A stretch of DNA of 64,000 nt from Myxococcota bacterium (GTDB taxonomy: Bacteria > Myxococcota > B64-G9), in contig JAKLGA010000001.1 in the NCBI GenBank assembly GCA_022710975.1, positions 124,001 through 188,000 of the forward strand. Reading direction: 5' to 3'. The notes below the pieces were generated by a model. The model made no database searches and was not told the DNA's origin. It was given only the letters and a program-made list of their open reading frames with translations. Positions 10,189-59,948 of this stretch are shown here, one piece after another. The stretch's first letter is position 1; each line of letters opens with the position of its first letter. A program made the position numbers and the translations under genes.

Positions 10189-10624
10189 GGCGGGCCCAAC
10201 CTACCCCGCGGGCCCCTGGGGCACAAGCGGCTTGTGGAGCGGGGCGGCGCCGAAACGCGGCCCTCCCGCCCGGAGCGAGTCCGGGTGGGAGGGCCCTGGA
10301 ACGGGAGCGAGAAAAGGAGGTTGGGAACACGCTCCGGCGAACCCGCCGGAGACTCTATGTGAACAGGGTCAGGGCCCCTGTCGGTCGCGAGCGGCCCCGC
10401 GAGGCCGCCCAGGAAGCACCGGCGCGGGCGCGGGCGGGGAGGGAAGCCCGGGTCGCACGCGTCCTTCGCCGGTGGTTCCTAGGGTGCCTGGCACCCTGGC
10501 CGTCATGCACAGCAAGGCGTGTGCCAGGCCCGGGGCCGTCCTGCGTCCGCTCTGGAATCGCAGCCTTGGAAGGAATCGCTCCGGCGCCGGCCGGGGGCCG
10601 CTGGCGCGGTTCACGACATTCCTG
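10189..10624. other. Intergenic region, ligA to radical SAM operon
   Basis: No convincing gene is seen in these 436 bases. They lie downstream of ligA and upstream of the radical SAM operon, both on the minus strand. They contain a strong GC-rich hairpin (annotated separately), a small perfect inverted repeat CACAAG-CGG-CTTGTG (10222-10236) and an 8-bp perfect inverted repeat AGGGTGCC-T-GGCACCCT around 10482-10498. A clear TTGACA/TATAAT pair for the operon was not found. Confidence 0.6.
10259..10295 (-). terminator. GC-rich hairpin, terminator or attenuator
   Basis: A 16-base stem (GGCCCTCCCGCCCGGA paired with TCCGGGTGGGAGGGCC, one G-T type mismatch) with a 5-base loop. It sits 330 bases after the ligA stop and 70 bases before the radical SAM start, on the strand that carries both. 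It lacks a strong U-tract, so it may be a weak terminator for ligA, an attenuator or an mRNA-stabilising structure. Confidence 0.5.
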
Positions 10625-30382: not shown

Positions 30383-32088
30383 TTGGGCGCCACCTCCAGC
30401 TCGCCGCCGTCCGGCCGTCCGACCCAGGAGGGCTCCGAGCGCAGGCAGCACATCCGCCTGCTGGTCGTCGTGCGCAGCGCGGTCGTCGCGCCGCTCGCGG
30501 CCGCGACCCTGTTCTTCAACTTGAAGGCGGGGCTGCCGTTCCTGGGGGCGACCCAGCTCAGCCTGATCCTGGTCCTGGCCTTGGTGCTGGGGGCGACGAT
30601 CCTGTACGCCGCCTGGGCGCAGGCCAGGGCGCCGCGCTGGGGTTGGCACCTCCAGATCCAGGTCGTCCTGGATTTGCTGGTGTCGACCTGGCTGGTGTTC
30701 CTCACCAACGGCGCGGAGAGCCCGTTCACCTTCCTGTTCGCGTTGCCCATCATCGCCGCGGCCCTGTTCTTCCCCCGGCGCGGCGCGATGCTGACCGCGG
30801 GGCTGGCCTGCCTGCTGGTCGGGGCGATGTTCATGCTGCAGAGCCTGGGTTACCTGCCCATGGAGCTCGAGGGCGAGCGCGTTCTCCCGCCGGCCACCGG
30901 GCGGGTGGTCTTCCTGATGGTGTTCCACTTCGCCGTGTTCTTCGCCGTGGCCTGGCTGGCCGCCCAGCTCGGCGAGCAGCTCCAGCGCACCGGGCGCGAG
31001 CTGCGCACCGCCTCCGAGGATCTCCAGGCCCTGGCCTCGCTGAACCGGGACATCGTGCAGAGCCTGCGCTCCGGGCTGATGGCCATGGACCAGGCCGGCC
31101 GGGTGCGCCTGCTGAACCCGGTGGCCGAGGAGATCCTGGGCGCGCGGGCCGCGGACAGCCTCGGCAGACCCGGGGTGGAGCTGCTGCCGCCGCTGGCCAG
31201 GCTGCTCGAGGGCGAGCCGGCTCACGCCGGGCGCGGCGTGGCGGCCGTGCTCCAGCGCGTCCAGGTGCTGCACCAGCGCCTGCCGGGCCCGCGCGAGGTG
31301 CCGGTGGGCCTGACCCTCTCGGCGCTCTCCAGGGCCGACGGGAGCGCTGCGGGCACGCTGGTGCACATGCAGGATCTGACCGAGCTGCGCGCGCTCGAGG
31401 CCAAGATGAAGAAGGCCGAGCGCCTGGCCGCGCTGGGCGGCATGGCCGCGGTGCTGGCGCACGAGATCCGCAATCCGCTGGCCTCGATCAGCGGCTCGGT
31501 GCAGATGCTGCAGCGCTCCTCGCTGCTCGACGGCGCCGACCGCAAGCTGATGGAGATCATCCTGCGGGAGACCGGCCGCCTGGATGGCCTGCTGGGCGAG
31601 TTCCTGGCCTTCGCCCGGCCCAAGGAGCCACGGCGCGTGGAGTGCGAGCTCCACGCCCTGGTCCAGGATTCGCTGACCATGTTCGCGCGCTCGGAGCTGG
31701 GCGGGCAGCTCGAGCTCGTGCCCGAGCTCGAGGACGTCCACGGCCTGGTCGATCCCGACCAGATCCGCCAGGTGCTGTGGAACCTGCTGAGCAACGCGGC
31801 CCAGGCGCTGGGCGGAGAGGGCCGCGGCCGCATCCGGGTGCGGCTGTGGCGCACGCTGGAGGCAGGGGCGGCGCGCGTCCACCTCGAGGTGCGCGACAGC
31901 GGGCCGGGCATCCCGCCCGAGCTGCAGGAGCGCGTCTTCGAGCCGTTCTTCTCCACGCGCGAGAAGGGCACGGGCCTGGGCCTGGCCGTGGTCAACCAGA
32001 TCGTCGAGGCGCACGGCGGGCAGGTCGAGCTCGACTGCCCGCGTGAGGGCGGCTGCCGCGTCGAGGTGCGCCTGCCGGGGGTGTCGCC

Positions 32089-32092
<4 letters not shown>
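30383..32092 (+). CDS. pilS: PilS-like sensor histidine kinase
   Basis: A 569-residue membrane kinase. Six hydrophobic helices lie in the first 200 residues, as in PilS, then a PAS-like domain (about 210-335), a HisKA domain with phospho-acceptor His360 (LAHEIRNPLASI), and a HATPase domain with N box (NLLSNAAQA), DSGPGIPP and GTGLGLAVV. It should phosphorylate PilR. In Pseudomonas, PilS senses pilin in the inner membrane. TTG start; the stop overlaps the pilR start (GTGA). Confidence 0.9.
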
Positions 32093-33453
<1,361 letters not shown>

Positions 33454-33506
33454 GCTCGGCCGGCAGGCACGGGCTTGAAATTCTTGCCGGCTGCGCAATC
33501 ATTTCA

Positions 33507-33552
33507 TGGCAGGACCCGCCTGGTTCCTGGCAGGGTTCCAGTGACTGGCAGG
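33507..33552 (+). promoter_or_regulatory. Three TGGCAGG repeats, candidate activator sites
   Basis: TGGCAGG occurs at 33507-33513, 33528-33534 and 33546-33552, all in the same direction and spaced 21 and 18 bases apart. The last is followed by CCCTGCCC, making an imperfect palindrome. They lie 90-136 bases upstream of the -24 element of the first pilin promoter, the usual distance for enhancer sites of NtrC-type activators. The first is 54 bases after the pilR stop. Confidence 0.5.
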
Positions 33553-33642
33553 TCCCTGCCCCGGTCGCCGGAGATTGCGCTTGCGGTACGACGTGTTGCG
33601 AGAGAGGCGCGCTCCCCGTGCGCTGGCCGGAAACTGGCGTGA

Positions 33643-33658
33643 TGGCATGGAACGTGCT
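33643..33658 (+). promoter_or_regulatory. Sigma-54 promoter of first pilin gene
   Basis: TGGCATGGAACGTGCT fits the -24/-12 consensus TGGCAC-N5-TTGCW with exact GG-to-GC spacing. It gives a leader of about 55 bases to the pilin ATG at 33723. Confidence 0.75.
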
Positions 33659-33722
33659 ACCCCGGAAACAGATCCATGGGTCGGGCGCTCGCAGGGAAGG
33701 GCGTTGGAAGGAGGCGCGCAAG

Positions 33723-34277
33723 ATGCTGATGGCTCTGAAAACCCGGCGATCCGGCATCACGCTCATCGAGCTCATGGTCGTGGTGGCCATCGTGGGCATC
33801 CTGGCCGCCGTGGCCATCCCCGTGTTCGGCTCGTACATGCGCCGCTCCAAGGCCTCCGAGGCCTTCACCGTGCTGCAGGGCATCCGCGATCGGGAGGAGG
33901 AGTTCTTCGGCGAGTTCCGGCGCTACACCGAGCCGTTGCCCTTCCGGCCGGCGGGTGGGACCTGCGCCGAGTGCTGCTCGAACTCGCGCGTGTGGAACTT
34001 GCCCGTGGGCGACCCGTGGCTCAACCTGGGCTTCGCGCCGGACGGCCCGACCTACTACAACTACGAGGTGCAGTCGCCGTACAACGCGGCCGGTGTGTTC
34101 AACAGCGGCGCGGCCCGGCCCCCCAACCTGGGCACCACCTGGCCCGCCACGGTGCGGCCGTGGTTCCTGGGCCACGCCTGCGGCGATCTCGACTGCAACG
34201 GGCTGTCCGCGAACTTCTGGATCTCCTCCGCGAACAAGAACGTCTTCCACGACCGCGCCAGCACCAGCGAGTTCTGA
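33723..34277 (+). CDS. pilA: Type IV pilin, family A (M. xanthus PilA-like)
   Basis: 184 residues with a type III prepilin signal: short basic leader, cleavage after Gly11 in RRSG/ITLIELMVVV with Glu at +5, then the hydrophobic helix ending AAVAIPVF. The first mature residue would be Ile rather than Phe. The globular part has FFGEFRRYTE and LGFAPDGPTYYNYEV, a layout like M. xanthus PilA. Four or more Cys residues could form disulfides. GGAGG lies 8 bases before the ATG. It follows pilR and has its own sigma-54 promoter. Confidence 0.9.
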   Translation: MLMALKTRRSGITLIELMVVVAIVGILAAVAIPVFGSYMRRSKASEAFTVLQGIRDREEEFFGEFRRYTEPLPFRPAGGTCAECCSNSRVWNLPVGDPWLNLGFAPDGPTYYNYEVQSPYNAAGVFNSGAARPPNLGTTWPATVRPWFLGHACGDLDCNGLSANFWISSANKNVFHDRASTSEF

Positions 34278-34298
34278 CCGGACCGTCAGGAGCGTGCC

Positions 34299-34913
34299 AT
34301 GCCATCGCCTCTCGCGCGCGTTCTTTCCAGCGGCCGGACCTCCCGCGGCTCGACGCTGATGGAGCTGATGATCGCCATCGTGGTGGTCGGGGTGCTGGCG
34401 GCCGTCGCCATCCCTGCCTTCAGCACCTACAAGAAACGCGCCTACCTTTCGGAGGGGACCGCCAACATCCAGGGCATCATGGAGGCCATGCAGGCTCACT
34501 TCGTCCGCTTCCAGCGGTACCTCCCGGCGCTGCCGCTGTGCCCGCCAGCCCCCCCGGCCAACATCGGCCAGAAGCAGCTCTTCAACCTGGCCCTGTGTAG
34601 CGCCGACTGGAGGACGCTCGGCTGGACGCCGGACGACGCAGTGGCCTTCCAGTACCGGACCTTCTCGGCCTACAACGCCGTCGGCGCGCGGGTCTTCCAC
34701 CCGGTGAGCGCCGCTCCCCCGGGCATGCTCTGCCCGGGCGGGAAATGCTACGGCCTCGACTGGAGCACGGAGGTCTCGGCCAACCTGGCGGTCATGCAGC
34801 CCTGGGTGGTGGTCGAGGCGGTGGGCGACACGGACAAGGACGGGGCGCAGGTCTTCATCCGGACCAACAACATCAACAACCGTACCTTCATCACCCCCGA
34901 CGACACCTACTGA
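34299..34913 (+). CDS. Type IV pilin paralogue, family A
   Basis: A 204-residue prepilin with cleavage site RG/STLMELMIAIVVVG and Glu at +5; the first mature residue is Ser, which is unusual. The layout after the helix matches the preceding pilin (WRTLGWTPDD...FQYRTFSAYNAVG), so the two are diverged tandem copies. It starts 22 bases after the first pilin and shares its transcript. It may be a minor or alternative subunit. It converges on pilI with only 9 bases between them and no visible terminator. Confidence 0.85.
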   Translation: MPSPLARVLSSGRTSRGSTLMELMIAIVVVGVLAAVAIPAFSTYKKRAYLSEGTANIQGIMEAMQAHFVRFQRYLPALPLCPPAPPANIGQKQLFNLALCSADWRTLGWTPDDAVAFQYRTFSAYNAVGARVFHPVSAAPPGMLCPGGKCYGLDWSTEVSANLAVMQPWVVVEAVGDTDKDGAQVFIRTNNINNRTFITPDDTY

Positions 34914-34922
34914 AGCCGCGCC

Positions 34923-35690
34923 TCAGGTCATGTCCCTGCGGGAGAAGACCGCCGCCGCGAGCAGCAGCAGGACGGCCATGTAGCTCAGCCCGTAGAGCGC
35001 GGTCCAGCCGACCTGGGCCGGGCTGGGCGGCACGCCGAACACCACCTGGGACGAGAGGTTGAAGCCGCTGAGGTCGGGCAGCAGCTGGGTCAGGCCGCGC
35101 GCCAGCGCGCGCAGGCCGGCTGACTCGATGCTGTCCGCCAGCCCCAGCAGCGAGGGCAGCGAACGGCCGATGACGAACAGGCCCAGGGTGAACAGGCCCG
35201 ACAGGTACGGGCTGGCGAGGGCGGCGAAGAAGGTGGCCATGGCGGCCACCAGCAGGATCTCCAGCAGCGCCAGCCCCAGCGCGGCCAGCAGCGAGGCGTC
35301 CACCGGGCCTCCCTCGACGGCCAGCAGGATCGCCAGGGCCACCGACAGGCACAGCACCTCGAGGATGAGGGTGGTGCACATGCCCAGGTACTTGCCGAGC
35401 ACGTACTGCCAGCGCCGGATGGGGCGGGTGAGCACCACGTAGATGGTCTTGCGCCGGACCTCCTTGTGCACCTGGCTGACGCCCAGCAGGATCGCCAGCA
35501 GCACGCCGAAGGCCGTCACGCAGAACAGCCCCCAGTCCTGGATGACACGGACGCGCTGGTCGAGGGCCAGCTCGGCCAGCAGCAGCGCCGAGGCGACGAA
35601 GGCCACGGCCAGGAGCAGCACCCCCAGCAGCGTGCGGCTGCGGATGGACTCGCGGAAGGCCGTGGCGGCCACGCTGAGCACGGCGCGCAT
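34923..35690 (-). CDS. pilI: ABC transporter permease, PilI-like
   Basis: A 255-residue ABC-2 type permease with six hydrophobic helices (about 20-40, 55-80, 105-130, 140-160, 165-180 and 230-248). It pairs with the ATPase gene 4 bases upstream. In M. xanthus, pilG, pilH and pilI follow pilA and encode an ABC transporter needed for normal pili. Order and family here match, so the name is by synteny. The transported substrate is not known. Confidence 0.75.
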   Translation of the reverse strand: MRAVLSVAATAFRESIRSRTLLGVLLLAVAFVASALLLAELALDQRVRVIQDWGLFCVTAFGVLLAILLGVSQVHKEVRRKTIYVVLTRPIRRWQYVLGKYLGMCTTLILEVLCLSVALAILLAVEGGPVDASLLAALGLALLEILLVAAMATFFAALASPYLSGLFTLGLFVIGRSLPSLLGLADSIESAGLRALARGLTQLLPDLSGFNLSSQVVFGVPPSPAQVGWTALYGLSYMAVLLLLAAAVFSRRDMT

Positions 35691-35694
35691 GATC

Positions 35695-36630
35695 TCAGCC
35701 CTCCTTGCTCTGGCGGACCCGCTCGAGGAACACGTCCTCCAGCGAACGGTGCTGGCGCTGGACCGAGCGCAGGCGCAGGGCGCGGCCGAGCAGGTGGGCC
35801 AGCAGCTCCTCCGGCCGGCGCTCGACCGGCGCGCGGATGAGCGTGTCGGACCCGGTCTGCTCGGCCCGCGCGCCGAACGCCGTGAGCTCGTCCGGCCCGA
35901 ACGCGGGGTGGCCCTCCAGCGCGATCTCCCAGCCGCTGGCCTGCTGCTGCAGCAGCTCCTGCATGGCGCCCTGGTCCACCAGCGCCCCCCGATGCAGGAT
36001 GGCCACCCGGTGGCAGATGGTCTCCGCCTCGGCCAGCACGTGCGAGGAGAAGAACACGGTCTTGCCTCGCCTGCCCAGCTCGAGCAGCAGGTCCTTGACC
36101 CAGCGGCGGCCGAGCGGGTCCAGCCCGCCCATGGGCTCGTCCCAGATGTACAGGTCGGGATCGGCCAGCAGGGTCTGGGCGATGCCCACCCGCTGCAACA
36201 TGCCCTTGGAGAACTTGCGCAGCGCCCGGCGCTCGGCCGGGTCGAGGCCGACCGTCTCCAGCACCTCGGGCACCTTGCGGCGCAGGCTGGCGCGGTCGAG
36301 GCCCGCCAGGCCGCCCACGTGGGACAGGAACTCGCCCGGGGTGAGGTAGTCGTAGAAGTCGGGCAGCTCGGGCAGGTAGGCCAGGCGGCGGCGCGCGGCC
36401 GGCTGGCTCACCGGCACCCCGAAGATCTCCGCTTGCCCGGCGTCCGCGCGCAGCAGCCCCACCAGGATCTTGATGGTGGTGGTCTTGCCCGCGCCGTTGT
36501 GGCCCAGGAACCCGAACACCTCTCCGGGCTCGACCTGCAGGTCCAGCCCGCGCACGGCTTCGCTGCGCTTGCGGCGCAGGCCGGAGCGGAACTCCTTGCG
36601 CAGGCCGCGGATGGCGATGGCATGGGTCAT
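35695..36630 (-). CDS. pilH: ABC transporter ATP-binding protein, PilH-like
   Basis: A 311-residue ATPase with Walker A GHNGAGKT near residue 43, signature FSKGMLQRVG near 142, Walker B LYIWDEPMGGLDP and H-loop FFSSHVL. The last 80 residues form the extra domain often seen in ABC-2 exporters. The frame is open upstream through pilG, but the ATG at 36630 overlaps the pilG stop (ATGA), and homology starts there. Named by position between pilG-like and pilI-like genes next to pilA. Confidence 0.8.
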   Translation of the reverse strand: MTHAIAIRGLRKEFRSGLRRKRSEAVRGLDLQVEPGEVFGFLGHNGAGKTTTIKILVGLLRADAGQAEIFGVPVSQPAARRRLAYLPELPDFYDYLTPGEFLSHVGGLAGLDRASLRRKVPEVLETVGLDPAERRALRKFSKGMLQRVGIAQTLLADPDLYIWDEPMGGLDPLGRRWVKDLLLELGRRGKTVFFSSHVLAEAETICHRVAILHRGALVDQGAMQELLQQQASGWEIALEGHPAFGPDELTAFGARAEQTGSDTLIRAPVERRPEELLAHLLGRALRLRSVQRQHRSLEDVFLERVRQSKEG

Positions 36631-37436
36631 GGTGAATCTTCCTCGCGCAGCAAGAGGTACAGGTCGAGCGGGATGTGCTCGTAGGAGCCGCGCCAGCCCT
36701 GCAGCCAGCGCTCCCGGCCGCGCGCGACCGCCGCGCGGGTGTCCTCGTCCAGCAGGACGGCCAGACGCTGCTGCAGCGCCGGGCCGAGCTGCAGCTCCTC
36801 GGTCTCCATGGCCAGCTCCTGGACCATCCTCCGGGCGAGCTCCCGGTTGCCCTCGCGGGTGTACAGGTCGGCCAGCTTCTGGCGCAGCCAGGGGGGCGCG
36901 CCCGGCAGGCGCGCGGCGCGCTCGAAGTAGGGGATGGCCGCGTCGGCCTGGCCGAGCTCGTAGTGCAGGTTGAAGGCGATGCGCATGGGGAATCTGGAGT
37001 CCTGGGGGAAGCGCCGCATGCCGCGCTCGAGGATCTGGTTGGCGCGCTGGACCCACTCGGGCAGGGTGTCCGTGTTGACCCGGCGGCGGTACACGGAGGT
37101 CACCGCCCCCCACAGGTAGATCTTGGCGAAGTCCGGGTCCAGGGCGATCACCTCCTCCACGAAGGTGTCCAGCCAGGGCAGGGACTCGTCGCCGAGGATG
37201 TGCTGCCCGTAGTACAGGTTGGCCCGGATGAACAGCAGGTCGGCGGCCAGGGTGTGGTAGCCCAGGTCGAGGTGCCTGAGGATCCGGCCGGGCGGCACGA
37301 GCAGGACCTCCTTGCCGCGCAGCTCCTCCGAGGATGGGTACTGGAGCTGCCCCCAGCGGCCGAGCCCGGCCAGGCCCATCAGGCCCAGGCACAGGCCAGC
37401 GGACAGGAGCCGGCTGGGGAGTGCGCGGGTGCCCAT
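36627..37436 (-). CDS. pilG: PilG-like membrane-anchored TPR-type protein
   Basis: 269 residues. An N-terminal hydrophobic segment (about 8-28) is followed by helical repeats of tetratricopeptide type (for example LPEWVQRANQILERGMRRFP and DAAIPYFERAARLPGAPPW). It matches M. xanthus PilG in place and general form, an accessory component of the PilGHI system; similarity at residue level cannot be tested here. A longer reading starts inside the pilA terminator (TTG 37454 or ATG 37448), so the ATG at 37436 is preferred. No clear ribosome site is visible, so translation may be weak. Confidence 0.65.
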   Translation of the reverse strand: MGTRALPSRLLSAGLCLGLMGLAGLGRWGQLQYPSSEELRGKEVLLVPPGRILRHLDLGYHTLAADLLFIRANLYYGQHILGDESLPWLDTFVEEVIALDPDFAKIYLWGAVTSVYRRRVNTDTLPEWVQRANQILERGMRRFPQDSRFPMRIAFNLHYELGQADAAIPYFERAARLPGAPPWLRQKLADLYTREGNRELARRMVQELAMETEELQLGPALQQRLAVLLDEDTRAAVARGRERWLQGWRGSYEHIPLDLYLLLREEDSP

Positions 37437-37450
37437 CGTTCGGATCATTA

Positions 37451-37485
37451 ACAAAAAGGGGGCGGGGCTTCAACTGCCCCGCCCC
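37451..37485 (-). terminator. Intrinsic terminator between pilA and pilG
   Basis: On the minus strand a perfect 10-base stem GGGGCGGGGC / GCCCCGCCCC with a 7-base loop is followed by CTTTTTGTT. It lies 32 bases after the pilA stop (37517) and 15 bases before the preferred pilG start. It is the only textbook Rho-independent terminator I see in the window. Confidence 0.9.
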
Positions 37486-37516
37486 GAGAAGAGGTCAGGT
37501 CGAGACGGATCGGGGT

Positions 37517-38092
37517 CTACCAATCATCGACCGTGTTGTCCGCCCACACGTGGCCGCCCTGCCAGGAGGAGGTCGCCACGCGGTACGTGCCGCGCTTCAC
37601 CCAGTGGGCCTCGATGTCGTCGTTGTCGATGTCGGTCCAGGCCTCGCAGTCGAAGGTGCCGGTGTCAGGCGGCGTCGCGTTGGGGAACGGGGTGGTGTAC
37701 TGGTAGGCGCCGTAGGTCGCCTCGGTCAGCACGAAGCCGAGGGACTTGAAGATCACACAGGTGCCGCCCGCGTTGTACTGGGTGGCCACGATGATCTGCG
37801 AGTCGCCGCTGAGCGGCAGCGGGGGGGCGCAGCGCGCCGCCATGGCGGGCGGGAGCAGCGACGAACGCACCGTGCCGTCCGTCTGGCCGCGCGGCTTGTC
37901 GAAGTAGTCCACGACGCCCTTGTAGCACTTGTCGAGGTTCTCGTTGACTTCCGTCGCCTTCGACTTGCGGATGTAGTTGATGAACGCCGGGATGGCCACC
38001 GCGGCCAGGATGCCGATGATGGCGACGACGATCATGAGCTCGATCAGCGTGAAGCCCTTGGCGTTGAACTTCCTGCGAATCCTCAGAATCAT
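37517..38092 (-). CDS. pilA: Type IV pilin, family B, copy next to pilGHI
   Basis: 191 residues. Prepilin leader with cleavage in [27 protein letters not shown], a textbook N-terminus with Phe at +1 and Glu at +5. The globular part has a Cys pair in DKCYKGV and RCAPP, a central TCVIFKS, and ends [17 protein letters not shown]. It is about 85% identical to the next gene by eye. GGAGG lies just before the ATG. A sigma-54 promoter stands 150 bases upstream and a strong terminator follows. Probably a major pilin. Confidence 0.92.
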
Positions 38093-38411
38093 TTTTCCTC
38101 CGTCTTCTTGCTCTCCGTGTCTCCACGGAGTCCGTTTCACTCTCGCGACCTGGACCTCCGGGTTCTCATCCACGAACGCACTTGCTTGCCCTGGGCGCGC
38201 GCCTCCTTTCCTCGCTCGTTCCAGTCAGCGGTCGCATTGTATACGCAACATCCGTGCCGCACAAGCTCCCGTCGCAACTGGCCGGATCGGCTCGGAACCT
38301 GCGGCGGGCGGGGGCGCGTGGCCTCGGTCCGGACGAAACTCGTCAGCCGCCGGGTGACGGCAATTGTCAGTCTGCCCGAGGGAGTCCTGTGTGCCTGGTG
38401 CGCGCATCTCT
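38093..38411 (-). other. Leader and promoter region between the two family-B pilins
   Basis: No gene is seen. The region holds a sigma-54 promoter (listed separately) and, upstream of it, inverted repeats TGAC-N7-GTCA (about 38352-38366) and GACGA-AAC-TCGTC (38332-38344). I see no intrinsic terminator for the upstream pilin copy, so read-through into this copy is possible. The leader before the downstream pilin is about 140 bases. Confidence 0.6.
38244..38259 (-). promoter_or_regulatory. Sigma-54 promoter of pilA (pilGHI-proximal copy)
   Basis: Minus strand CGGCACGGATGTTGCG (38259 to 38244): GGCAC and TTGC with exact -24/-12 spacing, the best sigma-54 match in the window. Confidence 0.8.
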
Positions 38412-38990
38412 TCACCAGTCGTCCGCGCCGTTGTCGTTCCACACGTGGCCGCCCTGCCAGGAGGAGGTGTTGGTGTGGTAAGTCCCGCGCTTGACCCAGT
38501 GGGCCTCGGAGTCGTCGTTGTCGATGTCGGTCCAAGCCTCGCAATCGAAGGTGCCACCCTCGGGCGGGGTCGCGTTCGAGAACGGGGTGAAGAACCGGTA
38601 GGCTCCGTACGTGGCCTCGGTCAGGATGAAGCCGAGCGACTTGAAGATCGCGCAGGTCCCGCCCGCGTTGTACTGGGTGGCCAGGATGACCTGTGAGTCA
38701 CCGCTGAGCGGGAGCGGGGGGGCGCAGCGGGCGGCCATGGTCGGGGGGAGCGCCGCCGAGCGCACCTGGCCGTCGGTCTCCCCGCGCGGTTTCTCGAAGT
38801 AGTCGACCACGCCCTTGTAGCAGCGATCCAGGTTCTCGTGGACCTCGGTGGACTTCGACTTGCGGATGTAGTTGATGAAGGCCGGGATGGCCACCGCGGC
38901 CAGGATGCCGATGATGGCAACCACCACCATGAGCTCGATCAGGGTGAAGCCTCGGGGACGGCCTACACGCGGAGAAGAGAGGATCAGCAT
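38412..38990 (-). CDS. pilA: Type IV pilin, family B, upstream copy
   Basis: 192 residues, tandem paralogue of the preceding entry. It has a different leader (MLILSSPRVGRPRG) but the same mature start FTLIELMVVVAIIGI with Glu at +5, the same Cys positions and the same ending (NGADDW). About 27 substitutions over roughly 178 residues are seen. They concentrate in the middle (TPFSNATPPEGG) and near the C-terminus (YHTNTSSW), while the Cys framework is kept. GGAG lies 7 bases before the ATG. It has its own sigma-54 promoter. Confidence 0.92.
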   Translation of the reverse strand: MLILSSPRVGRPRGFTLIELMVVVAIIGILAAVAIPAFINYIRKSKSTEVHENLDRCYKGVVDYFEKPRGETDGQVRSAALPPTMAARCAPPLPLSGDSQVILATQYNAGGTCAIFKSLGFILTEATYGAYRFFTPFSNATPPEGGTFDCEAWTDIDNDDSEAHWVKRGTYHTNTSSWQGGHVWNDNGADDW

Positions 38991-39039
38991 TCCATGACTC
39001 CAGCCTGCCGTTTGCGCAGAGCGCGACGGCGCGCATTCT

Positions 39040-39055
39040 TGCAGTTTCCATGCCC
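39040..39055 (-). promoter_or_regulatory. Sigma-54 promoter of upstream family-B pilin
   Basis: Minus strand GGGCATGGAAACTGCA (39055 to 39040), exact -24/-12 spacing. It resembles the first pilin promoter (TGGCATGGAACGTGCT) beyond the consensus. Leader about 40 bases. Confidence 0.7.
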
Positions 39056-39075
39056 CGGATGCAGCCTCCGGACCG

Positions 39076-39159
39076 CCATGGAAACGCGACGTTTTCATGG
39101 CGGGACTGGGTCGATCCGGGTCGCAGGTGACGTTCCTGGGTACAGGAAACTGCCGTTTC
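39076..39159 (-). promoter_or_regulatory. Palindromes upstream of pilin promoter
   Basis: A 25-base near-perfect palindrome (39076-39100) has arms CCATGGAAACG and CGTTTTCATGG around CGA. A second palindrome GAAAC-TGCC-GTTTC lies at 39146-39159. Both share a GAAAC/GTTTC core and lie upstream of the -24 element, so they are candidate activator-binding sites. Confidence 0.45.
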
Positions 39160-39281
39160 TCGTCAGTGTCAACCCCTTCCTCCTGTCCGGAGGTCCGCTT
39201 GCATTCCTGGGTCTCCCGGGAGATGCTCGCCAGTGTCGTCCGGGCGGCCACCTGCGACCCGGCGCCCGGGGAGGCAGGCCG

Positions 39282-39749
39282 ATGAACTGCAAGAACTGTG
39301 GAGCGCCCATGCGCCCGGCCGGGGGCGGCGAGTACTTCACCTGCGACCACTGCACCAGCTTCCACTTCCCGGAGCGCACGGCGGACGGGGTGCGCTCGGC
39401 CGGGGAGCCCTCCGAGCTCGAGTGCCCGGTCTGCCGGGCCGGGCTCGTGGTGGGGTACATCCGCCGCCACCGGGTGCAGGCCTGCCCGAAGTGCCAGGGC
39501 GTGCTGGTGGGGCCGGGCAGCCTGTCGCTGCTGGTGGACGAGCTGCGCGCGCGGCATTCCGGCCCGCGCCTGCCGCCTGCGCCGCTCGCCCCGCCGGAGC
39601 AGGAGCGCCGGCTCCAGTGCCCACGCTGCCGGGCCGCCATGGACCTGCATCCGTACTACGGCCCGGGCCGGGTGCTGATCGACACCTGCGGGCCGTGCGC
39701 CCTGGTCTGGCTCGATCGCGGGGAGATCGCCACCATCGCCAGATCGTGA
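39282..39749 (+). CDS. Zinc-ribbon (TFIIB-type) protein
   Basis: 155 residues with four CxxC knuckle pairs: CKNC and CDHC (first ribbon), CPVC and CPKC (second), then CPRC and CGPC (third). The second part resembles the zf-TFIIB family (CPKCQGVLVGPGSLSLLVDEL, with a matching LVWLDRGEI at the end). Function unknown; related proteins often lie in membrane or secretion gene clusters. It starts just 25 bases before pilD and probably shares its transcript. The ribosome site GGGGAGG is clear. Confidence 0.75.
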   Translation: MNCKNCGAPMRPAGGGEYFTCDHCTSFHFPERTADGVRSAGEPSELECPVCRAGLVVGYIRRHRVQACPKCQGVLVGPGSLSLLVDELRARHSGPRLPPAPLAPPEQERRLQCPRCRAAMDLHPYYGPGRVLIDTCGPCALVWLDRGEIATIARS

Positions 39750-39774
39750 GCGCCGCGCGCGCGGGAGGTCACCC

Positions 39775-40710
39775 TTGGATCTGCTGGATCCCCAGGCCTG
39801 GTGGGTGGGCGTGTTCGTGTTCCTGTTCGCGGCCACGGTGGGCAGCTTCCTGAACGTGGTCATCTACCGGCTGCCGATCCCGGGCAAGTCCATCGTGCGG
39901 CCGCGCTCCGCCTGCCCGGCCTGCGGCGCGCTCATCCGCTGGTACGACAACGTGCCCATCCTGAGCTTCCTCTGGCTGCGGGCCCGGTGCCGTTCCTGCC
40001 GGGCGCCCATCTCCTGGCGCTACCCCCTGGTCGAGGCGCTGACCGGCGCCCTGGCCGTGGCGCTGTGGTGGCGGTTCGGGCTGAGCGCGGCGCTGGGGGT
40101 GCACTTCGCCTTCAGCGCGGCCCTGGTGGCCATCGCGTTCATCGACTACGACCACCGCATCATCCCCGACGAGATCAGCCTGCCCGGGATCGCGATCGGC
40201 TTCGCCTGCTCCTTCCTGTGGGAGGGCATGTGGCTCGAGTCCCTGATCGGCCTCCTGGTCGGCGGGCTGGGCCTGTTCCTGATGTCCTGGGGCTACGCGC
40301 TGCTGCGCGGGCGCGAGGGCATGGGCATGGGCGACGTCAAGCTGCTGGGCATGCTGGGGGCCTGGTTGGGCTGGCGCTCGCTGCTGTTCATCGCGCTGTT
40401 CGCCTCCCTGCAGGGCGTGCTGGTGAGCGTGGTCCTGACGCTCGCGGGGGTCAAGCTCAAGCCGCCGCTGCCGGAGGAGTGGGAGCTCGAGGAGGAGCAG
40501 CGCCGCGCGGCCGAGGCCGCGGGTGCCGCCCCGCCCGCGCAGGGCGCGGCCGATCCGGAGGCGACCGGCGCGGGCGCGGACGGCGGGCAGGAACCCGCCG
40601 TCGGCTTCCTCGGCGCGGCCATCCCCTTCGGCCCGTTCCTGGCGCTGGCCGCGGTCGAGTACCTGTTCCTGGGGCCGTGGTTCTACGGGTTGCTGGCCGG
40701 GCAGGGGTAG
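39775..40710 (+). CDS. pilD: Prepilin peptidase / N-methyltransferase
   Basis: A 311-residue polytopic aspartic protease that cuts prepilin leaders and methylates the new N-terminus. The cytoplasmic zinc loop is CPACG...CRSC. The catalytic aspartates are in FIDYDHRIIPDE and GMGMGDVKL (GxGD motif). Eight or so hydrophobic helices are present. A Glu/Ala/Pro-rich insertion (about residues 225-275) lies before the last helix and is longer than usual. TTG start with GGGAGGT upstream. It serves all the pilins of the window. Confidence 0.96.
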   Translation: MDLLDPQAWWVGVFVFLFAATVGSFLNVVIYRLPIPGKSIVRPRSACPACGALIRWYDNVPILSFLWLRARCRSCRAPISWRYPLVEALTGALAVALWWRFGLSAALGVHFAFSAALVAIAFIDYDHRIIPDEISLPGIAIGFACSFLWEGMWLESLIGLLVGGLGLFLMSWGYALLRGREGMGMGDVKLLGMLGAWLGWRSLLFIALFASLQGVLVSVVLTLAGVKLKPPLPEEWELEEEQRRAAEAAGAAPPAQGAADPEATGAGADGGQEPAVGFLGAAIPFGPFLALAAVEYLFLGPWFYGLLAGQG

Positions 40711-40723
40711 GGGAGGGGCCGGC

Positions 40724-42334
40724 ATGGTCCGCGCGGGCATCGGGCTCAAGCCGCTCCTGGCGCTCCACCTGGCGGTGCTGCTCGGGCTGGGCGCGCTGCT
40801 GATGAGCCTGGCCGCGAACCGGCTGCTGCGCTACGGCATGCTGGTGGAGTTCGCCAACTCGCGCCGAGGGGTGCTGCTCGAGCTGGGCGAGCGCCTGCCG
40901 GCGGTCTGTCCGGGCCTGCTGGCGCGCCAGCCCTGTCCAGGGCTCGCGGCCTGGACGCGCGCCAGGACCCGGCTGCACCCGGATCTGCACGCCTTGACCG
41001 TGCTGGACCCGGCGGGCCGGCCCGCGGTGTCCAGCGAGCCGGGCGCCGGCTGGGACGGCCTGGCCGGCGGGTCCGCCTCCTCGCCGCCCGGCCTGCCGGC
41101 GGGCTGGGAGATCGTCGAGCTCGGCCGCCAGGCGCGCGGGCTGCGCACCGACGTGCCGGTGGGCGGCGGGGGCTGGCGGCTGCAGGGCACCTTCCTGCTC
41201 GCGGACACCGATCGCGCCGCCCGGCGGGCGACCGCCAGCATCGCGCTGTACGCCTTCCTGGTGGCGGGCGGCCTGGTGCTGCTCGGCTTCGGGCTGCTCT
41301 GGCGCCTGGTGGTGCGGCCGCTCGACCGGCTGCTGCGGGTGGCCGAGCGCGCCTCCGAGGAGGGCGATCTGGCCTGGCTGCGCGACGCCGATCTGGGCAA
41401 CGAGGTGGGCCGCCTGGGGCTGTCCCTCGGCCGCATGGCCAGGCGCATCGAGGCGGACCGCGATCGCCTGCGCGCGCAGATCGCCGAGCTCGAGCGGCTC
41501 AACGCCCACCTGCACCAGACCCAGCAGGGGCTGGTGCGCACGGAGAAGCTGGCCTCGGTGGGCCGGCTGGCGGCCGGCCTGGCGCACGAGGTCGGCAACC
41601 CCATCGCCGCGGTGCTGGGCTACGTGAGCATGCTGCGCACCGAGCGCATCCCGCCCGAGGAGGCGGCCGACATGCTGCGGCGGGTGGAGCGCGAGGTCGA
41701 GCGCGTGGACCGCATCATCCGCGATCTGCTGGCCTACTCGCGGCCGGGCCGGGGCAGCGTGGCCCCGCACGCGCCCGCGGCGCTCGTGGACGACGCGCTC
41801 GGCCTGCTCCGCCCGCAGAAGAAGTGGAAGAGCATCACCTGCGCCGTGGAGCTGTCCGCCGACCTGCCCGCGGTGCAGGTGGACGCCGATCTGCTGCGCC
41901 AGGTGCTGGTGAACCTGCTGCTCAACGCCCTCGACGCGCTCCCGGAGGGCGGGCACCTGTGGGTGCGCGCCGCGGTCGCGGAGGCGGAGCCCGCGGGCGA
42001 GACGCGCTGGGTGGGCGGCGAGCCGGCCTCCTTCGGCCTGGGCGAGCTGCACGCCATCCAGCTCCCGCGGGGGGGCGCGGGCCTGCCCGCCGGGCGGCGC
42101 GCGGTGGTGTTCAGCGTCACCGACGACGGCGCGGGCATCGCTCCGCAGGATCTCCCGCACGTGTTCGACCCCTTCTTCACCACCAAGGAGCCCGGCCGCG
42201 GCACGGGCCTCGGGCTGGCCATCTGCCAGTCCGCGGTGGCCAGCCTGGGGGGCGAGATCTGGGCCTGGAGCCGGCCCGGCCTGGGCACCCAGGTGGCCTT
42301 CTTCGTGCCTGCGGTGGCCCCCCCCGGTCTTTGA
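40724..42334 (+). CDS. pilS2: NtrB-like sensor kinase (PilS2-like)
   Basis: A 536-residue membrane kinase with two transmembrane helices (about 10-30 and 165-190) around a periplasmic domain of some 130 residues. A HAMP domain, a coiled coil, HisKA with His288 (LAHEVGNPIAAVLGY) and a HATPase domain (NLLLNALDA, DDGAGI, GTGLGLAIC) follow. This layout differs from PilS, which has six helices. As I recall, M. xanthus also has a second pair, pilS2/pilR2, near pilD; the symbol is by that synteny. It follows pilD by 13 bases. Confidence 0.8.
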   Translation: MVRAGIGLKPLLALHLAVLLGLGALLMSLAANRLLRYGMLVEFANSRRGVLLELGERLPAVCPGLLARQPCPGLAAWTRARTRLHPDLHALTVLDPAGRPAVSSEPGAGWDGLAGGSASSPPGLPAGWEIVELGRQARGLRTDVPVGGGGWRLQGTFLLADTDRAARRATASIALYAFLVAGGLVLLGFGLLWRLVVRPLDRLLRVAERASEEGDLAWLRDADLGNEVGRLGLSLGRMARRIEADRDRLRAQIAELERLNAHLHQTQQGLVRTEKLASVGRLAAGLAHEVGNPIAAVLGYVSMLRTERIPPEEAADMLRRVEREVERVDRIIRDLLAYSRPGRGSVAPHAPAALVDDALGLLRPQKKWKSITCAVELSADLPAVQVDADLLRQVLVNLLLNALDALPEGGHLWVRAAVAEAEPAGETRWVGGEPASFGLGELHAIQLPRGGAGLPAGRRAVVFSVTDDGAGIAPQDLPHVFDPFFTTKEPGRGTGLGLAICQSAVASLGGEIWAWSRPGLGTQVAFFVPAVAPPGL

Positions 42335-42358
42335 CATCCCCGGGGCCGCCTGTACAAT
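42331..42358 (+). promoter_or_regulatory. Sigma-70-like promoter of pilR2-like gene
   Basis: TTGACA (42331-42336), 16-base spacer, TACAAT (42353-42358) with an extended TG. The -35 element overlaps the stop of the kinase gene. The leader to the ATG at 42375 would be only about 10 bases. Confidence 0.7.
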
Positions 42359-42374
42359 GGCGCCGGGAGCACCC

Positions 42375-43778
<1,404 letters not shown>

Positions 43779-43974
43779 GGAGACTCCCGGGCGACTCTTC
43801 CCTGTCCTCGGGGAGTGGAAAAGATTGCAGGACGTGGAAATGTTTTCCTATTCCACCCCGGTCCAGCGCAGCCCATTGGCGCAGATTTCATATTTCAAAC
43901 AATATGTTGAGAGCCAACCCGGGGTGGTATGTGGATTGCAGGCATGGCCTCGGATGGCGAAGCGGAGGTCCAGC
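43779..43974 (+). other. Regulatory region before minor-pilin operon
   Basis: No gene is seen. The region contains a 13-base perfect palindrome GGAAA-TGT-TTTCC (43836-43848), flanked by GTGGAA and TTCCAC-like arms, about 90 bases upstream of the sigma-54 promoter. It also holds a short AT-rich stretch (ATTTCATATTTCAAACAATATG, here split across 43887-43908). Confidence 0.55.
43925..43940 (+). promoter_or_regulatory. Sigma-54 promoter of minor-pilin operon
   Basis: TGGTATGTGGATTGCA has correct -24/-12 spacing, with a T for C at the fourth position and a full TTGCA. Predicted transcription start near 43951. Confidence 0.7.
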
Positions 43975-44568
43975 ATGGGCGCGAATCGCAGGCGACGCCG
44001 GACAGGCGGCTTCAGTCTCATGGAGCTCATGGTGGTGGTGGCCATCATCGCCTTCGTGTCGGCCGCCGTGGTGCCGACCTTCGCCATGTCGCTCCAGCGC
44101 GGCCGGCAGCGCGAGGCGGGCTGGCTGATCGTCGAGGGGGTCTTCACCGCCCGGTCGCGCGCCGCCCGCACCGGCCGCTGCCACCGGGTGGTGGTGGCCC
44201 CGGCCAACCCCGCGGTGAGCGGGGGCACGGGGGGCTGGGTGGCGGTGCAGGAGTCGAACATGGCCGAGTGCAGCCGCGCCATGAACTCCGGCACCTGGAC
44301 CTCGGTCTCCGTGAAGTCGGTGGGCGGCGGCAACGTGCTGGGCCAGCCGCGTGTCGCCCTGGCGGGCAAGGACGTGGCCATCTCGGCCATGATGGGCAAC
44401 CTCAACAACCCGGACACGGTCGTGTTCGAGCCCTCGGGCGGGCTGTGGGTGCGCAACGCCGACCCGCGCGCTTACACCATCACCATGTACACCGACGCCG
44501 GGGTGCCGCGGGGGCTCCCGCGGCGGGTCATCATCACCTCGGGTGGCTCGGTCCGCTACGGCGGCTGA
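43975..44568 (+). CDS. fimT: Minor pilin, FimT/GspH type
   Basis: A 197-residue prepilin with a basic leader (MGANRRRRRTGG), cleavage before FSLMELMVVVAIIAFV and Glu at +5. The beta-rich C-terminus ends in PRRVIITSGGSVRYGG, typical of FimT/GspH pseudopilins. The frame is open back into the preceding gene, but GGAGGT lies 6 bases before the ATG at 43975, just after the predicted sigma-54 start. First gene of the fimT-pilV-pilW-pilX-pilY1 operon that forms the priming tip complex. Confidence 0.87.
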   Translation: MGANRRRRRTGGFSLMELMVVVAIIAFVSAAVVPTFAMSLQRGRQREAGWLIVEGVFTARSRAARTGRCHRVVVAPANPAVSGGTGGWVAVQESNMAECSRAMNSGTWTSVSVKSVGGGNVLGQPRVALAGKDVAISAMMGNLNNPDTVVFEPSGGLWVRNADPRAYTITMYTDAGVPRGLPRRVIITSGGSVRYGG

Positions 44569-44584
44569 CGCGAGGGGAGCGAGC

Positions 44585-45235
44585 ATGAGGCGCAGCGCAC
44601 AGGCAGCAGGCAATCCGGGCGCGGGCAGCGGCCGGGCCGGCTTCACCCTGATCGAGGTGATGATGGCCATGGTGGTGATGTCGCTCGGCGTGTTCGCGGT
44701 GATCCAGCTCCAGGTGGTGGCGATCCGCGGCAACGCCTACGCCCGGGAGCGCACCGAGGCCTACGAGATCGCGCTCGGCGTGGCGGAGGAGATGCGCCTG
44801 CAGTCGTTGCGCTGGAAGCCGGGCACCGTCTTCTCCGCGGTGTTCTACAACCCCTCCTCGCTGCCCAACCCCGGCGCCCAGCCCCTGGACGGCGTGGACA
44901 TCCTCGACACCCAGCTTCAGACGTTCCCCTTCTACAACGATACACCCTTGGGCGATTCGGCCTTCGAAAACGCCGATCCAATCAACGTGTTCGGCGCCCT
45001 GGCTGGCGCCGTGGACGGGCAGCGCTCCATCTACCGGGTGCACTACGCCATGTACCAGGTCCGCCCGGCGCCCGGCCTGCCCGTGAACCCGGGCTTGGTT
45101 CGAGTGACGGTGCTGGTGTCCTGGGACAACAAGGACCACGGGCTGCAGACCGGGGCGTGGGAGAACCCCGCGCTGGCGGCCTTCTGGAACCGGCACATGA
45201 TCGCCATCACCTTCTACCTGGCCCAGGTGCTGTGA
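44585..45235 (+). CDS. pilV: Minor pilin PilV
   Basis: A 216-residue prepilin with a Gly-rich leader, GRAG/FTLIEVMMAMVVMSLGVFAVIQLQ and Glu at +5. The sequence VAEEMRLQSLRW after the helix is typical of PilV. GGGGAG lies 6 bases before the ATG. It is part of the tip complex with PilW, PilX and FimT. Confidence 0.87.
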   Translation: MRRSAQAAGNPGAGSGRAGFTLIEVMMAMVVMSLGVFAVIQLQVVAIRGNAYARERTEAYEIALGVAEEMRLQSLRWKPGTVFSAVFYNPSSLPNPGAQPLDGVDILDTQLQTFPFYNDTPLGDSAFENADPINVFGALAGAVDGQRSIYRVHYAMYQVRPAPGLPVNPGLVRVTVLVSWDNKDHGLQTGAWENPALAAFWNRHMIAITFYLAQVL

Positions 45236-45257
45236 GGGCGGGGCAGAGGCGGGAACC

Positions 45258-46424
45258 ATGAGCGCGAGAACGAGGACCGGATTCACGCTGATCGAACTGA
45301 TGGTCGCCCTGGCGGCGGCCGGGCTGCTGATGGCCTCGGTGGTGGGGCTGTCGGCCTCGGTGCAGCGCTCCTTCGGCTACGCCAAGGACATCACCGAGCT
45401 GCAGGGCAACCTGCGCTTCGCCATGAAGACCGTGGTGGACGATCTGGCGCGGGTGTCCTACATGCATGCGCCGAATCCCGGCACGGATTGCCACCGAGAC
45501 GGCCCGGAGCCTCCTGCGATGCCTGCGTTGGCGTTCGACGGCAGCGTGCTCTCGCTGCGGGGCAACTTCGTCAGCGCCCGCGACTACCTGATCGACCTGA
45601 ACCTCGGCAAGGTCATGTGCCGTAACGAAATGGACCTCAATGCCGCAGTGGTGTCGGCCGAAATGAGCGGCGAGTGTGGAGGGTACGAGCCCTACCTGGC
45701 ACCCTTCGCGGACGGGCCGGACAACCTGGGCGACGTGTTCTGCCCGGGGCAGATCGTGCGCATGGAGACCAGCCCAGGCAGGTTCCAGTACCTGCCTGTC
45801 ACCTCCGTGAACCCTGGCACAAACGGCATCCTGTTGAACCTGGCCGCCTACAGCTTCAACGAGAAACAGGGCTACCTCCACTTCACCAATCCGCTGACCC
45901 TGGTCCAGTATCAGGTCGCCGAGGATGCCGGCTACACGGTCCCCTTCTCCAACCCCACCGCTGCCGCCAAGCGCTGGGTGCTGACCCGCCAGCACGACGG
46001 GTGCGAGAACGGGGCGCTGACCTGGGCCAACCCCATCGAGCTGGCCGAGTTCCTGCTGCCCCAGGATCCAGCGCTGCCCTCGGGCTTCAGCCTGGAGTTC
46101 GTCGATGACACCAACCCCGCCAACTTTCCCGCCCCGGGCCAGTGCCCAATGAACAGCGCCCCGGCGATGTTCGGCCCGCGCACCCTGCTCACCGCGGCCG
46201 GCCAGCTCAACCCGACCCGGGTGCGGGCCTTCGTGATCACCCTCCGCGGCCGGACCGTGGCCGAGGATCCCAACTACTTCCTGCCGAACCTGAGCGCGGC
46301 CCCGGCCATCTGGATGAACCACGGGGTGGATCTCGACAACTCCCTGAGCAACGGGCTGGCCTACGTGCGCTCCGAGCGCACGGTGATCCAGCTCCGCAAC
46401 CTGAGCCTCAACCTGACCCTGTGA
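45258..46424 (+). CDS. pilW: Minor pilin PilW
   Basis: A 388-residue prepilin, long for this class, with [25 protein letters not shown] and Glu at +5. LRFAMKTVVDDLAR after the helix is typical of PilW. The large globular part holds scattered Cys residues. It starts 22 bases after pilV. Confidence 0.85.
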   Translation: MSARTRTGFTLIELMVALAAAGLLMASVVGLSASVQRSFGYAKDITELQGNLRFAMKTVVDDLARVSYMHAPNPGTDCHRDGPEPPAMPALAFDGSVLSLRGNFVSARDYLIDLNLGKVMCRNEMDLNAAVVSAEMSGECGGYEPYLAPFADGPDNLGDVFCPGQIVRMETSPGRFQYLPVTSVNPGTNGILLNLAAYSFNEKQGYLHFTNPLTLVQYQVAEDAGYTVPFSNPTAAAKRWVLTRQHDGCENGALTWANPIELAEFLLPQDPALPSGFSLEFVDDTNPANFPAPGQCPMNSAPAMFGPRTLLTAAGQLNPTRVRAFVITLRGRTVAEDPNYFLPNLSAAPAIWMNHGVDLDNSLSNGLAYVRSERTVIQLRNLSLNLTL

Positions 46425-59162: not shown

Positions 59163-59723
59163 ATGTACGAGACTTCCGAATTCCGACGGGGCCTGAAGAT
59201 CGAGATCAACGGTGAGCCGTTCGTCATCATCGAGTTCCAGCACATCAAGCCGGGCAAGGGCAACGCCTTCACGCGGACCAAGATCAAGAGCCTGCTGACC
59301 GGCAACGTGCTCGAGCCGACCTTCAAGTCGGGCGACAAGGTGGGGCGGCCGGACCTCGAGGAGAAGGAGATGCAGTTCCTCTACCGCGAGGGCGATGCCT
59401 TCCACTTCATGGACACCAAGAACTACGAGCAGCAGTCCCTCGACATCTCCCAGATGCAGGGCAACGAGATCTGGCTGGTGGAGAACACCATGGTCGATGT
59501 GCTGTTCCACAACAACAAGCCCATCACCCTGGAAGTGCCTACCTTCGTGGAGTTGAAGGTGAAAAAGACCGATCCAGGCCTGCGCGGCGACACCGCCACC
59601 GGGGGCACCAAGCCTGCCACCATGGAGACGGGCGCGGTGGTTTCGGTCCCCCTGTTCGTCAACGAGGGGGAGCGCATCCGGATCGACACCCGCACCGGCA
59701 TGTACATGGAGCGCGTCAAGTAG
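59163..59723 (+). CDS. efp: Translation elongation factor P
   Basis: A 186-residue EF-P, which prevents ribosome stalling at polyproline stretches. The three-domain layout is normal. The modification loop is KPGKGNAF with Lys32, the form modified by beta-lysylation in E. coli (PGKGQAF). Its targets in this window probably include the PPPP stretch of PilY1 and the Pro-rich linkers of the pilus proteins. No modification enzyme gene is visible here. Confidence 0.95.
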   Translation: MYETSEFRRGLKIEINGEPFVIIEFQHIKPGKGNAFTRTKIKSLLTGNVLEPTFKSGDKVGRPDLEEKEMQFLYREGDAFHFMDTKNYEQQSLDISQMQGNEIWLVENTMVDVLFHNNKPITLEVPTFVELKVKKTDPGLRGDTATGGTKPATMETGAVVSVPLFVNEGERIRIDTRTGMYMERVK

Positions 59724-59767
59724 CACCCGCCACGGCCTCGCCGGGCAGCCATCCGCCGAAAAAGAAA

Positions 59768-59796
59768 TTGACTGAGCGGTAGGATCCAGCTAATAT
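59768..59796 (+). promoter_or_regulatory. Sigma-70-like promoter of TPR gene
   Basis: TTGACT (59768-59773), 17-base spacer, TAATAT (59791-59796). Clear match, giving a leader of about 145 bases. Confidence 0.7.
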
Positions 59797-59819
59797 CATT
59801 TGCTGGGTTCGTGTGCCGG

Positions 59820-59844
59820 AAACCCTTTTGTTTTCAAAGGGTTT
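59820..59844 (+). other. Perfect hairpin in leader of TPR gene
   Basis: Stem AAACCCTTT / AAAGGGTTT, 9 base pairs, with a 7-base loop TGTTTTC. It lies about 17 bases after the predicted transcription start and 105 bases before the GTG. It has no U-tract after it, so it is more likely an mRNA-stabilising or protein-binding element than a terminator. Confidence 0.6.
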
Positions 59845-59948
59845 GCCGTCCGGCGCGCGAGCGCTTCGGCCCTCGTTTCGGCAGAAACGGAACCGAGGCG
59901 TCGAGGTGCGTGTAGGAACTGGGCGGCGCGGCCGCCCGAGGGCTGACC

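Follow-up and report, generated by a model that had tools for sequence, protein, structure and literature searches.

A candidate activator site common to two major-pilin promoters, and a long palindrome beside one of them, in a Myxococcota bacterium

The window analysed here is a 64-kb stretch of DNA, within which all positions are counted. The piece of interest sits in a 291-bp divergent region separating the gene of pilin A' (38412-38990, minus strand) from a zinc-ribbon gene (PF13453) on the plus strand. The ATG of the latter is at 39282, a start near which is supported by the ortholog in the relative G008, and the gene is followed by a prepilin peptidase gene (39775-40710, plus strand). 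Long open frames cross the divergent region on both strands (38838-39749, plus; 38412-39863, minus). Pilin A' is a paralog of the main pilin A (37517-38092, minus strand), the proteins being 82% identical; at the DNA level, 37535-38056 and 38430-38951 are 85% identical over 522 bp. This homology begins exactly at the prepilin cleavage codon, and the leaders and promoters of the two genes are unalignable by blastn. Such a boundary may reflect gene conversion or an exchange of leader and promoter. The window also holds a PilR-type regulator of the NtrC family (32089-33453, plus strand), the gene of pilin B adjoining it, a second NtrC-family regulator named EBP2 (42357-43778, plus strand) and a FimT/GspH-like minor pilin gene (43975-44568, plus strand), named by its position and weak family matches.

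The -24/-12 consensus of sigma-54 (RpoN) is TGGCAC-N5-TTGCW, with a GG-N10-GC core. An earlier sequence-only reading of this DNA had placed a sigma-54 promoter on the minus strand, and a sigma-54-like site, GGGCATGGAAACTGCA, was indeed found there at 39040-39055, upstream of pilin A'. It has the GG-N10-GC core, although its -24 element begins with G and not T, and its score of 27.3 is reached or exceeded at 12 of 127,970 window positions. The main-pilin promoters of seven relatives from the same family score 28.0-31.2. The corresponding site of pilin A, CGGCACGGATGTTGCG, lies at 38244-38259 on the minus strand.

We compared the sequences preceding 41 prepilin genes, taken from the window and from 15 loci of relatives. 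Those of the main pilins have in common a palindrome, which we call UAS1: it reads TGAC-N7-GTCA and lies about 80 bp before -24. UAS1 followed by a sigma-54 core was searched for across 58 genomes, and 25 of them were matched. The genome of the window (G000) gave a single match, the promoter of main pilin A (38245-38369), and matches upstream of prepilin genes were present in other families as well (G019, G021, G043, G038 and G040). A prepilin gene follows immediately at 8 of the 20 loci that we read but not at the other 12, so the combined pattern alone is unspecific. Unsupervised motif discovery yielded no clean motif from the pilin B set alone or, at the widths tried, from the A set. UAS1 originates from the upstream comparison and the combined pattern, and pilin B promoters were scored with the fimT motif described below.

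A symmetric 19-bp UAS1 motif was trained on 12 sites from 11 other genomes, the window being excluded. It was applied to 74 prepilin upstream regions of 30 genomes, counting sites of at least 14.7 no more than 160 bp ahead of the best sigma-54-like site. This motif search in relatives, which the earlier reading had proposed as a check, recovered UAS1 upstream of the sigma-54-like site of a prepilin gene in 27 of the 30 genomes, many of which are close relatives, their occurrences not being independent events; G010, G011 and G035 gave no match. Among the genomes held out of training the count was 17 of 20, while 300 column-permuted motifs reached a mean of 0.09 of the 20 and a maximum of 7. UAS1 is separated from -24 of main pilins by about 58-105 bp, and by 58-103 bp where the sites counted here are concerned. 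A copy at -71 to -83 is present in all seven family relatives, and five of these have another, scoring at least 10 bits, at -100 to -105. A site scoring 18.5 at -33 of a minor pilin in G002 may be due to chance. We found no description of a TGAC-N7-GTCA major-pilin site in the full-text literature searched, a limited collection.

Main pilin A has two UAS1 copies in tandem on the minus strand. The distal one (38353-38371, ACTGACAATTGCCGTCACC) has the top score of the window, 19.2, and the proximal one (38329-38347) ranks fourth with 11.7 bits. At pilin A', the site ACTGACGAGAAACGGCAGT (39149-39167, minus strand) ranks third with 16.2 bits, next to a position of equal standing at 54689 (16.3) that lies within a coding stretch as far as readable. 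The score of the A' site is reached at 3 of 63,982 window positions, its own included, and by none of 2000 shuffles of the A' region; 100 shuffled windows hold a mean of 0.05 sites of at least 16.2. With TGAC-N7-GGCA, the A' site keeps seven of the eight half-site bases (GGCA standing for GTCA), and the changed half-site (GGCA/TGCC) occurs in ten other genomes. At 39126-39144 (minus strand), 80 bp upstream of -24, where relatives keep the proximal copy, A' has a degenerate second position with one intact half-site, GTCACC, and a weak score of 1.9. The strong site is 103 bp upstream of -24 at A', exactly as the distal copy is at A. Since the leaders and promoters of the two genes are unalignable, the retained UAS1 and its distance look constrained at both. 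The short palindrome GAAAC-N4-GTTTC that the sequence-only reading had singled out is present as GAAACTGCCGTTTC at 39146-39159 and overlaps the A' UAS1 by 11 bases. Both further GAAAC occurrences that it listed, at 38335 and 33630, also exist, the former falling inside the second UAS1 copy of pilin A.

A different class of sites, class C, characterizes the fimT promoters, which in eight genera, the window's included, have the consensus tGgAAA-N2-TTTcCa in common. The motif was trained on seven relatives with the window left out, and six of the eight promoters carry two copies of at least 8.4 bits, near -102 and -82. In the window, the two best class C sites lie on the plus strand at 43834-43849 (15.8) and 43815-43830 (15.6), upstream of the sigma-54-like site of fimT, TGGTATGTGGATTGCA (43925-43940, plus strand). 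The first holds GGAAA-TGT-TTTCC, the palindrome noted earlier at 43836 (GGAAATGTTTTCC, 43836-43848). Its existence is confirmed, but its supposed likeness to the palindromes beside A' is not: it is part of a class C site, the short palindrome is part of a UAS1, and the long palindrome described below scores 3.0 for class C. The promoters of A and A' score at most 3.0 and thus fall outside the class.

Pilin B, the "first pilin" of the earlier reading, has class C sites at 33474-33489 (12.5) and 33493-33508 (10.6), on the plus strand and with the same 19-bp spacing as at fimT, upstream of a sigma-54-like site, TGGCATGGAACGTGCT (33643-33658, plus strand). Two sites of such strength appeared in none of 2000 local shuffles of either promoter, while single sites appeared in 68 of 2000 at pilin B and 50 of 2000 at fimT. 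A class C score of 10.6 is not unusual, with 3.1 such sites per shuffled window; the motif is AT-rich, and it scores high in some relatives' main-pilin promoters too (18.8 at -18 in G005). Five of six pilin B promoters have a class C site of at least 12.5, the exception being G002 (6.7); that of G007 also has a weak UAS1 match (10.9). The TGGCAGG repeats that had been regarded as the mark of this promoter do occur in three copies (33507-33556), just downstream of the tandem class C pair. In five relatives, the 161-220 bp preceding -24 of the B promoter contain no such repeats.

Two regulators of the window might serve these sites. The PilR-type protein carries GAFTGA and a helix-turn-helix (HTH), and G049 and G053 each have a gene with GAFTGA about 1 kb ahead of their pilin, in the same orientation. 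The frame of the PilR-type gene of G049 ends just before a UAS1 pair, with the pilin beyond. The regulator of G049 and PilR of the window have in common the HTH GVKTxAAxLLGxSFRSxRYR, including SFRSxRYR, and over the whole protein the former shows 49% identity with PilR and 42% with EBP2. By our reading, 18 of the 27 genomes with UAS1 encode a PilR-type HTH of at least 60% identity on the contig of the UAS1 pilin and at most 15 kb from it. Gene adjacency in G049, the common HTH and this linkage make PilR the best candidate, and most likely the reader, of UAS1. Two observations weigh against PilR: pilR in the window adjoins pilin B, which is without UAS1, and the top PilR-HTH match in G003, where UAS1 is present, is only 48%.

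EBP2 orthologs, 70-76% identical and with nearly the same HTH, are found directly upstream of fimT in all seven relatives examined, and EBP2 probably reads the class C sites of fimT and pilin B. In five genomes of other families (G015, G027, G038, G043 and G045), an EBP2-like gene lies within about 6 kb of a UAS1 pilin, so EBP2-type proteins stay on the list of candidate UAS1 readers. In the 600 bp that follow these five EBP2-like genes there is no prepilin gene, and class C scores do not exceed 7.1; class C is therefore demonstrated for the family only. EBP2 has GAFTDA in place of GAFTGA. The same variant occurs in the orthologs of six of the seven family relatives (GSFTDA in G008) and in the five EBP2-like genes of other families, and GAFTDA is listed for a Desulfovibrio regulator (PMC4641369).

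Such evidence leads us to consider it likely that the 39040-39167 region is a sigma-54-dependent A' promoter activated by a PilR-type protein, A and A' having UAS1 in common and fimT and pilin B belonging to class C. RNA polymerase with sigma-54 would occupy 39040-39055, and a dimer of the PilR-type activator would bind the 19-bp UAS1 at 39149-39167, 103 bp upstream of -24. NtrC-type activators loop over to the promoter and open it using ATP, and the PilR-type activator would do likewise at A', with the long palindrome inside the looped DNA that separates UAS1 from the promoter. With the same UAS1 at the same distance in its paralog A, the two major pilins would be turned on jointly, while the fimT and pilin B promoters would instead use class C, probably through EBP2, encoded beside fimT. 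The sites themselves are shown here, with their locations, conservation and statistical weight; the protein-to-site assignments and the activity of the promoters are our inference. Counting against this scenario, A' has a single strong UAS1 with one half-site changed and a degenerate second copy.

One could instead suppose that A' has an activator of its own, distinct from that of A. Outside the sites, its leader and promoter are indeed non-homologous to those of A, only 54 of the 132 bases from UAS1 to -12 being equal. However, UAS1 stands at the same 103-bp distance in both genes, and the half-site variant of the A' kind recurs in ten other genomes, which makes a separate activator quite improbable. 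Overall, a single activator, most likely PilR, probably controls both A and A'. The earlier suggestion that different activators serve different pilins is thus supported by sequence, but with another grouping: A and A' (UAS1) versus fimT and pilin B (class C). The contrast it drew between A' and the first pilin stands, whereas its link between A' and the fimT promoter does not. The stretch that attracted attention is, as we read it, a real and ordinary regulatory region with one copy of a widely conserved candidate activator site of major pilins. If so, the two classes would offer a testable operator code for the type IV pilus genes of this family, and one that for the major pilin reaches further, with one class for major pilins, another for minor pilins and an accessory pilin, and a nearby candidate activator for each.

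Among known systems, the PilR-dependent pilA promoters of Myxococcus, Geobacter and Pseudomonas likewise combine a sigma-54 major-pilin promoter with upstream activator sites. In Geobacter, pilA is located immediately downstream of pilR (PMC2725144), an order that resembles the arrangement in G049. The hallmarks described for P. aeruginosa, a NifA-like TGT-N11-AGA sequence and GTCT elements (PMC6058289), differ from UAS1, which is TGAC-N7-GTCA and often in tandem. The sites of Myxococcus xanthus NmpR are GCGCA-N5-TGCGC, with two per promoter (PMC11841059): here, too, an NtrC-like regulator has palindromes in pairs ahead of a sigma-54 site, although their half-site and spacer are not those of UAS1. 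NmpR failed to bind the pilA promoter (PMC6211767). Half-sites resembling those of UAS1 are found in the yGTCA-N6-TGACr repeat upstream of DVU2894 orthologs and in the GTCA-N6-TGGC of FlrA (PMC4641369), but their order is opposite, the spacer is N6, and these repeats are flagellar and not pilin elements. Finally, M. xanthus uses a separate NtrC-like regulator, HsfA, for its pilY1/minor-pilin operons (PMC9109919), which resembles the role proposed for EBP2 at the minor pilin.

The long palindrome lies between the UAS1 and the sigma-54-like site of A', at 39073-39103, and reads CCGCCATGGAAACG-CGA-CGTTTTCATGGCGG. The near-perfect palindrome reported earlier therefore exists, but its length is 31 bp and not 25: it has 14-bp arms with 13 of the 14 pairs matched, a single mismatch, and a 3-nt centre. 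Its 25-base core matches only its own site in the genome of the window (7.13 Mb, up to 3 mismatches), and the next match of 39030-39290 in that genome, among the matches listed, has 36.5 bits over about 28 bases. The matches listed from the 58 genomes searched include no counterpart that aligns with the region: the best has 41.9 bits over 30 bases and lies outside the palindrome, and the few that touch it cover about 20 bases each. A looser palindrome pattern gave 16 forward matches, the own site included, against 6 for the reversed control, in 10 of 20 genomes. None but the own site was on a contig where pilins were found in these 20 genomes, and we take the others as chance, though 15 versus 6 is an excess. 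Viral contigs held no exact copy of the palindrome. We also considered and rejected several known kinds of element: a dispersed repeat of the REP/MITE type requires several copies, and the core is single to 3 mismatches in the genome; an intrinsic terminator needs a G+C-rich hairpin with a T run, and no terminator-like site is present within 38800-39400; in a class C site the spacing of GAAA and TTTC differs, and 3.0 is the top class C score here. The palindrome belongs to neither UAS1 nor class C and was seen only in this genome. Of the palindromes that had been linked earlier, the 31-bp one is absent from orthologous promoters as far as searched, in a comparison where pilin A' itself is without an ortholog, whereas the sites overlapping the short palindrome and the one at 43836 do recur.

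As for the role of the palindrome, we regard it as a tentative possibility that it is the operator of a further dimeric regulator acting on A', on the divergent zinc-ribbon/pilD genes or on both, such as a repressor or, at a position often taken by IHF, a bending protein. Its centre is about 33 bp upstream of the start of the A' -24 element, between UAS1 and that element, and shuffling the surrounding 301 bp 3000 times never produced an inverted repeat of such quality. At pilE of commensal Neisseria, the stretch that separates the activator site from the RpoN site is bound by IHF (PMC6528607). A regulator of this kind would, however, own one known site, the core being single in the genome, and relatives lack a counterpart as far as searched. 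Arms of 14 bp are also long for an operator. It is somewhat unlikely that the palindrome is simply a chance or drifting sequence without function. Judged window-wide it is not rare: 60 shuffled windows of the same composition hold 0.47 repeats of this quality on average and at most 2, and two are observed. Conservation was not found in the relatives searched. The surroundings argue against chance, since the 291-bp intergenic region holds a second inverted repeat, perfect over 14 nt (CCGGGTCGCAGGTG/CACCTGCGACCCGG, 39116-39129 and 39249-39262), and its fold is among the strongest of the window. The only other inverted repeat of the palindrome's quality in the window (13 of 14 arm pairs, spacer of at most 8) is at 10260-10294.

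An RNA-level role, with the palindrome as a hairpin in a structured 5' leader controlling translation of the plus-strand zinc-ribbon and prepilin-peptidase genes, seems unlikely to us. What speaks for it is the fold of 39060-39280 (221 nt), a stretch comprising the palindrome, the perfect 14-nt inverted repeat and the zinc-ribbon Shine-Dalgarno region: the plus-strand RNA is predicted to fold with -125 kcal/mol (z -5.45, 0 of 200 shuffles), a fold that takes in the 14-nt repeat and pairs the Shine-Dalgarno GGAGGC (39270-39275) with GCCTCC (39064-39069), and a nearby plus-strand frame ranks third among the 3190 scanned. Nevertheless, the minus strand also folds well (-111.1 kcal/mol, z -4.13, 0 of 200 shuffles). 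There is no sigma-70-like promoter in 38800-39400 to transcribe such a leader, plus-strand sigma-54-like sites in 38950-39300 score 24.7 at most, Rfam gives no match in the region, and no homologs were found in the genomes searched. It would be tempting to combine the two views and suppose that the region acts twice, as a PilR-type site in the DNA and, in the plus-strand RNA, as a leader that masks the ribosome-binding site ahead of the peptidase gene. Pilin production would then be tied to its processing enzyme, and the long palindrome would be one hairpin of the leader; we consider such a double action highly doubtful.

At E of at most 1, 32000-46000 has a single weak match to a known Rfam RNA, at 45282 and under its gathering score. 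The only two frames of the window that exceed the focal region in fold strength over expectation are 59721-59940 and 54961-55180. The divergent region also contains a 12-nt direct repeat, CTCGTCAGTGTC, at 39159 and 39226, with 11 of 12 bases equal.
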